Below are positions 3,207 to 24,520 of a DNA stretch of 35,091 bases, piece by piece. The notes beneath the pieces are model-generated. The model was not told the DNA's origin, searched no databases, and saw only the letters and a list, made by a program, of their open reading frames with translations. The translations under genes and the position numbers were made by a program. The stretch lies in NCBI GenBank assembly GCA_019313915.1, contig JAFDAJ010000027.1, positions 1-35,091 on the forward strand, in the 5' to 3' direction. Each line of letters opens with the position of its first letter. Positions within the stretch are counted from its first letter, which is position 1. The DNA comes from Deltaproteobacteria bacterium. GTDB lineage: Bacteria; Myxococcota_A; Polyangia; Polyangiales; Houyiibacteriaceae.

Positions 3207-3278
3207 GGCAGTGGCAGCGTCAGTGTCGGTGTCGGTGTCGGTGGCAGCGTCAGCGTCAGGGTCGGTGACGGCGGCGAC
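3207..3278. repeat. Degenerate hexamer array, twelve units
   Basis: Twelve consecutive 6-bp units share the pattern G(G/T)C(A/G)G(C/T), with three adjacent exact GTCGGT copies. The array ends on the first base of an inverted repeat at 3278-3296. A second hexamer array lies at 17816-17863. Both occupy minus-strand intergenic spacers. Confidence 0.8.
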
Positions 3279-13455: not shown

Positions 13456-14758
13456 CTTGGAGCTTGCGCGTCACTTGCCGGATGCGCTGGGCCAGCCATG
13501 GAGGTGTTACTACCGTGGTGGCCATCACCATGAGGACGATGGCGGCGTACACCCCGGCCGCGATGAGCGGCTTGCCCTCGATCTGAATGCCGGCGCCGAC
13601 GTTGGCGAAGATCAGGCCGACCTCACCGCGCGGGACCATCCCGATGCCGACGGTGAGTTTGTCTACATTCCCGCCGCGAACGCCCAAGCCCGATACGAGC
13701 TTGCCGATGACCGCGACGACCGTCAGTGCCAGCGCGAGGAGTAGGGGCCCCGTCCCGATACCGCCGAGCTGCACCATCATACCGGTTCGCACGAAGAAAA
13801 TCGGCGCCATGACCGCAACGATCGGGCCGATGAGCTCGTTGAGGTCGCGTGCGGACTTGTGGCCGAAGGGCCTGACGTGGACCTCATCCAAAATGAGTCC
13901 GGCGGCGAATGCGCCGACGATTGGCGCCAGGCCCGCAGCGCCCGAAATGCCTGCGAGAAGGAGGCAGAGACCGATGGCCACCGCCGCCAGGACGTCGGGT
14001 GTGCGGAGCTTCGAAGCCACGCGAAAGACACCCGGCATCACGTAAGCGCCGAGGAGAAGTGCGCCGATGAGGAACCCTCCGGCAAGACCGATGATGACCG
14101 TGAGGTCCATCGGACCGGGAACGGCGCCAAACTCCGCAATGCTCGCGACGACGGCGAGTACGATGAGGCCCAACACGTCGTCGATGACCGCCGCGCCGAG
14201 GATGACGCGGGTCTCAGGACGGGCCATCGCGTCGAGGTCTTTCAATACGCGGGCGGTGATCCCGACGCTCGTCGCGCAAAGCGTTGCGCCGATGAACATG
14301 TGAAGCGAAAACGGCGCGTCTGGGAGTAGCCAGAGGCTGACTCCGTATCCAAGCAGCATGGGTGCCACGACGCCGATGATCGCGACCAGGCCGGAGGTGG
14401 GCGCGACCGCCCGCATCTCCGTGAGCGTCGATTCAAGCCCTACCTCGAACAGCAGAAGAACGACACCAAGCTCTGCGAGGAACTCTACGGGCACGAGCTC
14501 GGCTGCGCCGTCGAAGGTGTGAACGCCAAGCAGGGTTAGATTGCCGAGGACGATGCCGGCGCACAGCTCACCGAGCACTGCCGGCTGATTCAAGCGCACT
14601 GCGATCTCGCCGCCGAGCTTCGCCGCGAGGAGCATTCCTGCGAGAATCAACCAGATGTCGTAGCTCAGCCCGTGCTCGTCACCGCTTGCTAGCGCGGTGG
14701 CGGGAATCGCCGCGAACAAAGCCAGCAGCAGAGAAAAGCGAGCCGGTCGACGCCGCAT
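13445..14758 (-). CDS. CPA2-family cation:proton antiporter
   Basis: This is an inner-membrane monovalent cation/proton exchanger of the Kef/CPA2 type. The 437-residue product has a cleavable-looking signal (MRRRPARFSLLLALFAAIPATALASG) and about 12 membrane segments. The core Asp pair lies in LGAAVIDDVLGLIVL, and the typical PAVLGELCAGIVLGN and LLFEVGLE segments are present. There is no C-terminal TrkA/RCK domain, so it is the short form and unlike KefB/KefC in having no nucleotide gate. The ATG at 14758 is preferred because the signal peptide begins there; the open frame runs 32 codons further up, to within 18 nt of the divergent gene. It overlaps mfd by 11 nt. Whether it carries Na+ or K+ is not readable. 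Confidence 0.9.
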   Translation of the reverse strand: MRRRPARFSLLLALFAAIPATALASGDEHGLSYDIWLILAGMLLAAKLGGEIAVRLNQPAVLGELCAGIVLGNLTLLGVHTFDGAAELVPVEFLAELGVVLLLFEVGLESTLTEMRAVAPTSGLVAIIGVVAPMLLGYGVSLWLLPDAPFSLHMFIGATLCATSVGITARVLKDLDAMARPETRVILGAAVIDDVLGLIVLAVVASIAEFGAVPGPMDLTVIIGLAGGFLIGALLLGAYVMPGVFRVASKLRTPDVLAAVAIGLCLLLAGISGAAGLAPIVGAFAAGLILDEVHVRPFGHKSARDLNELIGPIVAVMAPIFFVRTGMMVQLGGIGTGPLLLALALTVVAVIGKLVSGLGVRGGNVDKLTVGIGMVPRGEVGLIFANVGAGIQIEGKPLIAAGVYAAIVLMVMATTVVTPPWLAQRIRQVTRKLQDVT

Positions 14759-14816
14759 CGCGCGGGACCATAGATACGCGAGCACTGCGGGGCAAGCGCG
14801 CCCCGGCAATTGGATC

Positions 14817-14857
14817 TTGCCTCGGGCCGTGCCCTCGGGTAAATGAATGGTCATTCA
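14817..14857 (+). promoter_or_regulatory. Palindromic operator and weak promoter before the acyl-CoA dehydrogenase
   Basis: TGAATGGTCATTCA (14844-14857) has arms TGAATG and CATTCA around GT. Such arms are typical of TetR-family fatty-acid regulators; the half-sites resemble those of Bacillus FadR (TGAATGA and TCATTCA), which has a longer centre. A weak promoter, TTGCCT (14817) and TAAATG (14840) with 17-bp spacing, would have its -10 overlapped by the palindrome. The start codon follows 14 nt later. No TetR gene is in the window. Confidence 0.6.
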
Positions 14858-14871
14858 GTCAGGGGAGACCA

Positions 14872-16014
14872 ATGGAACGAAGCCTGTTTTCCGAGGAACA
14901 CGACATCTTTCGGCGCAACTTCCGGCAGTTTGCCGAGACCCGCGTCGCGCCCCAGCAAGCCAAATGGCGAGCGCAGGGAGTCGTGGATCGCGAAATCTGG
15001 ATCGAGGCCGGTGAGTTGGGCTTTTTGTGTCCCTGGATGGAGGAGGAGTACGGAGGGGCCGGCGGCGACTTCCTTCATTCGGTGATCGTCATGGAGGAGC
15101 TGTGCCGGGCCTACGAGTCAGGCTGGGCGGCGAGCCTGCACTCCGACATCATCGTTCCCTACATCCATTCGTTTGCTAACGCCGAGCAGAAAGCAAAGTG
15201 GCTGCCTGGTTGCGTCAGCGGCGAGACGATCACCGCGCTCGCGATGACCGAACCGGGGACGGGGTCCGACTTGGCCGGCATAGCGACCACGGCGAAGCGC
15301 GACGGCGACGCGTACGTCATCAACGGGGCCAAGACCTTCATCTCCAATGGGATGTCTTGCGACCTCATCGTGGTCGCAGCACGCACGGAGAACTCCGATG
15401 ATCCGCACCGCAGCTTGTCGTTGCTCGTCGTCGAAGCGGACACGCCCGGATTCATCAAGAGCCGCAAGCTCGAGAAAATGGGCATGGAGAGCCAAGATAC
15501 CGCAGAAATAGCGTTTGACGACTGCCGGGTGCCCGCCACGAACTTACTGGGTCAGGAGGGCGCGGGCTTCATGATGCTGATGCAGAAGCTCCAACAAGAG
15601 CGGCTGTGTGTGGCGATCATGTCGCAGGCGAGTGCGGAGAAAGTGCTGGAGGACGCGATCACATATACGCAGGAGCGCAAGGCGTTTGGGCGATCGATTT
15701 CCAAGTTTCAGAACACGCAGTTCACGCTCGCGCAGTGCGCCACCGAAATCGAGGTTGGCCGCGCCTTTCTGGACAGTCTGGTCGCGCAGCACGTTGCAGG
15801 GAAGTACCTCGTCAAGGAGTGCTCGATGGCCAAGCTTTGGCAGAGCGAGATGCAGGGCCGCGTCGTCGACGCATGCCTGCAGCTTTACGGCGGCTATGGC
15901 TACATGCTCGAGTATCCGATCAGCCGCGCATACGTGGATGCACGCGTCCAACGCATCTACGCGGGCACAAGCGAGATCATGAAGGTGATCATCGCGAAGC
16001 AGATTGGGCTGTAG
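14872..16014 (+). CDS. Acyl-CoA dehydrogenase, LCAD/IVD-type active site
   Basis: This flavoprotein oxidises an acyl-CoA thioester to the 2-enoyl-CoA and passes electrons to an electron-transfer flavoprotein. The 380-residue product has the usual family length and the motifs ALAMTEPGTGSDLAGI, INGAKTFISNG, DDCRVPATNLLGQEGAGF, and RIYAGTSEIMK near the end. Most short- and medium-chain enzymes carry the catalytic Glu in IYEGT; here that position is Ala364. A Glu at 243 (QQERL) sits where isovaleryl-CoA and long-chain enzymes have their base, so the protein should use that alternative. The ATG is preceded by AGGGGAG. A long or branched acyl-CoA substrate is an inference. The crotonase-family gene at 17869 is on the other strand. 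Confidence 0.93.
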   Translation: MERSLFSEEHDIFRRNFRQFAETRVAPQQAKWRAQGVVDREIWIEAGELGFLCPWMEEEYGGAGGDFLHSVIVMEELCRAYESGWAASLHSDIIVPYIHSFANAEQKAKWLPGCVSGETITALAMTEPGTGSDLAGIATTAKRDGDAYVINGAKTFISNGMSCDLIVVAARTENSDDPHRSLSLLVVEADTPGFIKSRKLEKMGMESQDTAEIAFDDCRVPATNLLGQEGAGFMMLMQKLQQERLCVAIMSQASAEKVLEDAITYTQERKAFGRSISKFQNTQFTLAQCATEIEVGRAFLDSLVAQHVAGKYLVKECSMAKLWQSEMQGRVVDACLQLYGGYGYMLEYPISRAYVDARVQRIYAGTSEIMKVIIAKQIGL

Positions 16015-17782: not shown

Positions 17783-17815
17783 CGTAGTGCTCCTCGAGGC
17801 GTCTTAGTCTTAGGT

Positions 17816-17863
17816 CAGTGCCAGTGCCAGTGCCAGTGTCAGTGCCGGTGCCAGTGCCAGTGC
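17816..17863. repeat. Eight-unit CAGTGC hexamer array
   Basis: Eight tandem 6-bp units, six exact CAGTGC and two with one change (CAGTGT, CGGTGC), fill most of the spacer between the crotonase-family gene and the LLM oxidoreductase start. The array ends 34 nt before that start codon on the minus strand. Copy changes would alter spacing in the leader without affecting any reading frame. Confidence 0.85.
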
Positions 17864-23678: not shown

Positions 23679-24520
23679 CAATCCTTCTCCGGCGGCGGTC
23701 GCCCCGCATTGCGACGGCGCGCGCGCTGCAAAGGAAGGTTCTCTTCACCCTGCTCCAGCGCATCGAGAAAGCGCTGCACCTCATCTCGCGGGATTGGCTG
23801 GGCTTCTTCTTGCCCTCGCGCTTCCCCTTGCTCGTTCTGGGGCGCGTCTTCGTTCTCGTCCCCGTCTTCCTGGCCCTGCTCCTGGTCCTGGTCCTGCTGC
23901 TGGCCCTGCTCCTGGTCCTGCTGCTGGTCCTGCTGCTGGTCCTGCTGCTGGTCCTTCTGCTGGTCCTGCCCCTGGTCTTGGTCCTGTTGCTGGTCCTGCT
24001 CCTGTTGTTGCTCTTGCTGCTTCTCTTCTTCCTCTCGAATTCGCTTCATGGCGTACTCGAGGTTCCATGCTGCGTTGCGGTCCCCGGGGCGCACGCGGAG
24101 GGCTCGTTTGAACGCGTCGGCTGCTTCACGAAACTGTGCCGACGCTTGTTCGTATTCTTCCTGTTGCGCAACCGCGTCCCCTTGCCGGGCGTAGGCGATG
24201 CCGAGGTTGTAGTACGCGTCCGCTCGCGTGCTCGGAGATGCGGCGGGATCTGCCCCGGCTAGCAACGCTTCCTTTGCCTGCTCGCCGAGATCCTGCGCGA
24301 GGAGCGCGAGGCCACGGTTGAGCTGCACAGCGCGCGCGTCTGGCAGCTCCCGCGCCGCTTCGTCGTATGCTTCGAGGGCAGGGCCGTACTGCTCTTGGGC
24401 CATCAACGCGTTGCCCCTCTTCGCGTTGGAGTTTTCCCCTCGAAGAGGGCTCCAGGCGGACGCACTTGCGGGCAAAGCAAGGGTTGCGGCGCAGCACAAG
24501 CACCAGGCAGCAAGTCTCAT
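23675..24520 (-). CDS. batC: BatC-like TPR protein with long Gln/Asp tract
   Basis: The 281-residue product has a signal peptide (LAAWCLCCAATLALPASASA), about three TPR units at 30-150 (ALMAQEQYGPALEAYDEAARELPDA; AYYNLGIAYARQGDA; AADAFKRALRVRPGDRNAAWNLEYAM) and a charged tract of about 80 residues (160-240) rich in Gln, Asp and Glu, ending with a short basic segment. The TPR part and its place between the VWA pair and batD match BatC. The tract is coded by mostly CAG/GAC units and is probably unfolded. Overlaps: ATGA with the VWA gene before it, GTGA with batD after it. Confidence 0.83.
   Translation of the reverse strand: MRLAAWCLCCAATLALPASASAWSPLRGENSNAKRGNALMAQEQYGPALEAYDEAARELPDARAVQLNRGLALLAQDLGEQAKEALLAGADPAASPSTRADAYYNLGIAYARQGDAVAQQEEYEQASAQFREAADAFKRALRVRPGDRNAAWNLEYAMKRIREEEEKQQEQQQEQDQQQDQDQGQDQQKDQQQDQQQDQQQDQEQGQQQDQDQEQGQEDGDENEDAPQNEQGEARGQEEAQPIPRDEVQRFLDALEQGEENLPLQRARRRNAGRPPPEKDW
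23797..24040 (-). repeat. CAG/GAC-rich coding repeat (Gln/Asp/Glu tract) in batC
   Basis: The part of the batC-like gene coding the Gln/Asp/Glu tract is built of related units such as CAGCAGCAGGAC and CAGGACCAG. Units keep a multiple of three bases, so copy changes alter only tract length. The opposite strand shows long open frames of Leu/Val residues, which are shadows of this repeat. Confidence 0.8.

Follow-up and report, generated by a model that had tools for sequence, protein, structure and literature searches.

A candidate FadR-type operator at the acyl-CoA dehydrogenase promoter of a myxobacterial genome

The FadR protein of Bacillus recognizes a box with the consensus TGAATGA-N4-TCATTCA. 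The Bacillus operon has the order lcfA-fadR-fadB-etfB-etfA (PMC4525379, PMC2743287), and the FadR of B. subtilis is, in the words of a review, a repressor inhibited by C14–C20 acyl-CoA. PMC6449355 describes FadRSa from Sulfolobus acidocaldarius as a TetR-family FadR which represses beta-oxidation genes, is released by acyl-CoA and has both one-dimer and two-dimer operators, while PMC5597230 gives TTRNACYNRGTNYAA as the binding consensus of the FadR from Thermus thermophilus. In the examined part of a comparative study of 2016 the name FadR stands for a GntR-family protein, and the table in that part contains no TetR-family FadR (PMC5343134).

The window (the whole 35,091-nucleotide stretch of DNA analysed here) contains, at the position named in the original prediction, a 14-bp palindrome which ends 14 bp before the ATG at position 14872 of an acyl-CoA dehydrogenase gene. 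Judging from the sequence comparisons described below, it is very probable that this palindrome is bound by a FadR-like repressor whose gene lies at another locus of this myxobacterial genome. FadR dimers would bind the site over the −10/transcription-start region of the dehydrogenase promoter and thus block transcription; a fatty acyl-CoA, probably a long-chain one, would bind FadR and release it from DNA, and this release would switch on the dehydrogenase of the window, a second dehydrogenase, a thiolase, an acyl-CoA carboxylase subunit and fadR itself. The blockade of the −10/start region and the release by acyl-CoA are expected because of the homology with the FadR proteins of Bacillus and Sulfolobus, acyl-CoA as the presumed inducer being taken over from characterised FadR proteins; binding, repression, ligand and promoter elements are what we infer. 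The reading as a whole, namely a YsiA-type FadR operator, a −10/start block, acyl-CoA release and the joint switching-on of these genes, is proposed with high confidence, and we regard it as a new and well-supported case of a switch already known, here in a phylum other than that of Bacillus. A literature search, a weak one as most subscription papers lay outside its reach, found no published description in the phyla treated below.

Operator and promoter of the dehydrogenase gene

The features discussed are listed in Table 1. The top PDB match of the dehydrogenase is the acyl-CoA dehydrogenase 2pg0 (E 3e-137), followed by the mitochondrial long-chain acyl-CoA dehydrogenase 8w0t (E 3e-107); no NCBIfam model scored above its cut-off against the 380-aa protein.

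Table 1 Features of the candidate operator region and of the predicted regulator gene. Positions are those of the window, except for the last line.
Feature	Position	Strand	Basis or remark
−35-like hexamer TTGCCT (putative promoter)	14817–14822	+	CTTG in the region in 17/17 genus loci
−10-like hexamer TAAATG (putative), overlaps the operator	14840–14845	+	TAAATG in 14/17 genus loci
18-bp FadR-type box TAAATGA-ATGG-TCATTCA, holds the 14-mer	14840–14857		one mismatch to the consensus
14-bp palindromic operator (candidate) TGAATG-GT-CATTCA, TGAATGGTCATTCA	14844–14857		kept in 17/17 genus loci and in G011
Second overlapping 18-bp register TGAATGGTCATTCAGTCA	14844–14861		two mismatches; genome consensus scan
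Ribosome-binding-like GGGGAG	14862–14867	+	by eye
Acyl-CoA dehydrogenase, 380 aa, long-chain type	14872–16014	+	PDB matches
tetR-family fadR homologue (P0002)	G000:C194:1708-2319	−	site match and homology

The promoter is placed here from the conservation of the −35-like and −10-like hexamers, which are 17 bp apart when read by eye, and is therefore a putative one; a formal scan of positions 14700–14950 for sigma-70 promoters and terminators gave no match, and an Rfam search of the whole window returned nothing at gathering scores. The palindrome had been placed between a possible promoter and the ribosome site. It does precede GGGGAG, but it overlaps the −10-like hexamer, so that it is not wholly downstream of the promoter.

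The resemblance to Bacillus FadR operators proposed at the outset is borne out by the box at 14840–14857, whose left end doubles as the −10-like hexamer. The centre had been described as shorter than that of FadR operators, which holds for the 14-mer taken as a register of its own but not for the 18-bp FadR-type box containing it, the registers being overlapping; on this comparison the site is better read as that 18-bp box with the 14-mer inside. Within one mismatch of the consensus, the genome has four 18-bp boxes and the reversed control has none; the four lie at the promoter of the window dehydrogenase, at a second dehydrogenase, at a carboxylase and at fadR. Two mismatches add two places, the shifted copy at the window promoter and one at C397, which lies inside a LepA gene and is taken as chance.

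Palindromes with 6-bp arms and a 2-bp centre number 11 in the window, and about 8.6 would be expected if all four bases were equally frequent; this is near chance, so symmetry by itself proves nothing and was not used as evidence. Over the genome, 51 places lie within two mismatches of the pattern and 18 do so for the control, while the exact sequence TGAATGNNCATTCA has a single place in 4.41 Mb and its reversed-pattern control none. The window site scores 26.3 bits with a matrix that includes the site itself, and a 24-bit site is expected about once per 100,000 upstream regions (one match in 20 million simulated positions). Under a first-order chance model of the whole genome a 24-bit site would occur 0.2 times and a 15-bit site about 18 times, so lone weak sites mean little and weight was placed on conservation.

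A search of 57 genomes (the window's own and its relatives) for the dehydrogenase gave a match at 1e-100 in 35. It was matched in 18 of the 19 genomes of the genus, and all 18 of these keep the site; the two outcomes named beforehand as speaking against an operator, occurrence at chance frequency and lack of conservation before orthologues, were not borne out by the single exact occurrence and by this count. The site lies 13–14 bp before the start in all 17 genus loci and, in the eighteenth genome (G011), 14 bp before the dehydrogenase match. The letters TGAATG and TTCA do not vary in the genus alignment, whose anchoring on the motif excluded no locus of the 17; of 60 upstream columns, by contrast, 3 are invariant, two in the −35 CTTG block and one in the −10-like hexamer. 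Among 13 dehydrogenase loci fetched and scored outside the genus, nine have a site of at least 21 bits, and in the other four orthologues (L051, L053, L057, L059) there is none within 200 bp.

Further upstream, in the intergenic region shared with a divergent Na+/H+ antiporter gene (14758–14810), the blocks GACCATAGA... and GGCAAG recur by eye in genus loci L032–L048; GGCAAG is the mirror of the −35-like CTTGCC, and the recurrence suggests a divergent promoter. Short tandem repeats were also seen in the window at 3211–3275, 17814–17863 and 23868–24035, with CAGTGC repeat units located between genes for a luciferase-like monooxygenase and an enoyl-CoA hydratase.

The FadR homologue and its neighbourhood

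The genome has 31 TetR_N matches, 30 of whose loci were scanned (C274 was left out, and eight of the 30 were below full length) with a matrix made from the dehydrogenase-upstream sites only and with flanks of up to 1.5 kb per side, some of them cut. Only one locus, L004 on G000:C194, carries the site (20.1 bits; the runner-up has 8.8), and its product, P0002, agrees with the prediction of a TetR-type, FadR-like repressor encoded elsewhere. It contains the Pfam domains TetR_N (PF00440, 63.2 bits with a cut-off of 24) and YsiA-like C-terminal (PF08359, 58.4 bits with a cut-off of 21). The four best of its 181 PDB matches are 1vi0, 3whb, 5gp9 and 5gpa (E 8e-33 to 1.5e-30, the first two both at 8e-33), of which 1vi0 and 5gpa are FadR proteins. 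As for the others, 3whb is the FadR of B. subtilis and 5gp9 that of B. halodurans, as given in PMC6449355. The Thermus FadR structure 3ang is more distant (E 1.6e-10), and the PsrA model matches at E 1e-4 over residues 15–80 only. FadR ranks first among 22 NCBIfam families, with 159.7 bits for the equivalog NF053878, below its cut-off of 200; the short name of this model ends in 'Bac', which we read as Bacillus, so the shortfall would argue against a Bacillus orthologue and not against a FadR homologue. By these matches the C194 protein is classed as a TetR-family FadR/YsiA homologue.

A fadR homologue is present in 17 of the 19 genus genomes, and the operator site lies across its start codon in all 16 genus loci with upstream DNA, a count that leaves out L097, which is cut off, and a second copy in G005, which has no locus. 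Outside the genus, where 140 bases per locus were inspected by eye, the site was seen at the FadR homologue in 10 of 13 further loci. With regard to the dehydrogenase loci described above, FadR was found in seven of the nine genomes having the site and in three of the four without it. The two former genomes in which no FadR was found at 1e-30 are those of L056 and L060 (G029 and G056, 93% and 87% complete). The site and the regulator therefore do not always coincide outside the genus, and their co-occurrence is not clean.

In L004 (1675–1692) and genus loci L081–L096 the start codon of fadR is inside its own operator, which spells the first codons as MAVHS, MAIHS or MVVHS; from this position the fadR mRNA may be almost leaderless.

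A scan of named genomes was performed with the regulator alignment, and the best 80 of 574 relatives were considered. Most of these are MAGs that bear the titles Myxococcales, Myxococcota or Deltaproteobacteria; a few belong to Desulfobacterales, Calditrichota and KSB1. The GVADGTIY helix served as a search seed and is partly present by construction in the 80 loci, so its conservation was not used. Two of the 80 were dropped for short upstream DNA; in the remaining 78, a 14-mer within one mismatch of a degenerate consensus, itself drawn from the same data, lies upstream of the FadR homologue in 69 (0.2 for single-base shuffles), an 18-mer within one mismatch in 47 (none for shuffles), and neither of the two in seven.

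Among the best 80 of 574, loci whose FadR is less than 50% identical to that of the window's genome fit both registers within one mismatch in 37 of 45 cases, and those at 50% or more fit the 14-mer only in 21 of 33, this being a count over related sequences and not a phylogenetic test. We suggest tentatively, and with more doubt than conviction, that FadR homologues read two nested registers, the distant relatives keeping the composite box and the close ones mostly the bare 14-mer. Such a split could reflect the evolution of a one-dimer operator out of a two-dimer one, and operators of the two kinds could give the promoters of one regulon responses of differing steepness; if true, natural variation would here test how a TetR repressor shifts between one-dimer and two-dimer binding.

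In 44 of the best 80 of 574, the FadR homologue is followed downstream by an EtfB gene of the same strand; a dehydrogenase follows in seven and a thiolase in four, some loci being cut. Within the genus, 12 of the 15 genomes having both fadR and etfB carry them on one contig at a distance of 1.5–3.7 kb, and three, including the window's own genome, have them on separate contigs. In L127 (3331–8574), the locus of the CP070713.1 orthologue, the order is plsY-like, fadR, GMC-oxidoreductase-like, a further stretch and etfB; three of the best 80 of 574 gave a match to the GMC-like gene, each with a FadR 90–92% identical to that of the window's genome.

Predicted targets and alternative readings

The search for the motif near other lipid genes and near a tetR gene, recommended together with the prediction, led to a second dehydrogenase, a thiolase, a carboxylase and fadR. 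Forty regions around most of the listed places with at most two mismatches were inspected with crude gene calling, and four places are located just before acyl-CoA metabolism genes, coding for a second acyl-CoA dehydrogenase, a thiolase, an acyl-CoA carboxylase carboxyltransferase and EtfB. The later regulon matrix was built from the sites of the first dehydrogenase and the fadR homologues, those of the other targets being kept out. For the second dehydrogenase, all 16 genus loci keep the site and TAAATGAACGTTCATTCA is invariant (two paralogues at 46% identity left out); for the thiolase, all 19 loci keep it (further copies, about 50% identical and without a locus, left out). The carboxylase site, about 46–53 bp before its ATG, was found in all 15 genus loci with upstream DNA as a 14-mer of at least 15 bits or an 18-mer with one mismatch, three of 18 loci having been dropped (two cut, one partial). 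The etfB site exceeds 11 bits in only five of 16 genus loci and is mostly eroded. A site at every acyl-CoA dehydrogenase was rejected: the domain has 36 matches in the genome, and only two of the 30 loci fetched have a site of at least 10 bits, so FadR would control only a part of beta-oxidation. Weaker operator-like sequences were seen in the own genome before genes for a citrate/sodium-sulfate-type transporter (L226:2003), a phosphate acetyltransferase (L242:1492), an AAT-family protein (L213:1877) and an acyltransferase (L217:1466), and these are not claimed as targets.

The same target list bears on the identity of the inducer, as the site before the acyl-CoA carboxylase subunit would also suit propionyl-CoA or methylcrotonyl-CoA metabolism, and the regulator falls short of the cut-off set for the NCBIfam FadR model. 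Release of the FadR-like repressor by a branched, short-chain or aromatic acyl-CoA is nevertheless unlikely, given the inhibition of B. subtilis FadR by C14–C20 acyl-CoA as stated in the review and the long-chain enzyme as the second-best PDB match of the dehydrogenase.

It is considerably less probable that the site is read by a paralogue, another TetR-family protein acting on lipid or branched-chain acid genes, and that FadR merely has a similar one. Room for such a protein is left by the 31 TetR_N matches with C274 outside the scan, by the two FadR-like copies of G005 and by the two genomes having the site and no FadR at 1e-30, but all except one of the 30 scanned TetR loci lack a site of at least 10 bits, fadR has it in every genus locus with upstream DNA (16 of 16), and FadR homologues of other phyla carry a related box.

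The end of the palindrome is 4 nt before the ribosome-binding-like sequence, as would suit a hairpin in the mRNA, but this is very improbable: a loop of 2 nt is too short to close a 6-bp stem, a single arm is changed in four of 17 genus loci (L037, L038, L041 and L043, of which L041 could retain a G-U pair), and a similar site is found over the fadR start codon and about 46–53 bp before the carboxylase ATG. A chance palindrome, compatible as it is with the near-chance number of such palindromes in the window, is refuted by the fact that all 18 genus genomes having the gene, and nine of 13 loci beyond the genus, conserve the site.

Comparison with known systems

Under the preferred FadR reading, fatty-acid degradation in Myxococcota and related 'deltaproteobacterial' genomes would have a candidate regulator together with an operator and a list of targets. 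Other regulators of Proteobacteria, namely PsrA and FadP of the TetR family and LiuR of the MerR family, likewise control fatty-acid or branched-chain acid degradation but differ from the FadR homologue described here. The FadR of T. thermophilus is similar in being a TetR-family regulator of fatty-acid degradation, whereas its consensus TTRNACYNRGTNYAA is unlike the window site. FadRSa differs, according to PMC6449355, in being archaeal, in acting on one 30-kb cluster and in having its own 16-bp motif.

Among the closest systems is FadR (YsiA) of B. subtilis, which shares with the one proposed here a TetR-family FadR with a YsiA-like C-terminal domain, a palindromic box of the TGAATGA...TCATTCA type, sites at fadR and beta-oxidation genes, and the location of fadR near etfB. 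The fadR-etfB neighbourhood and a related operator are thus common to both. In contrast to Bacillus, the phylum is another one, the operators are found before single genes scattered over the genome and are often a 14-bp palindrome nested in an 18-bp box, and most members of the genus have an eroded site at etfB.
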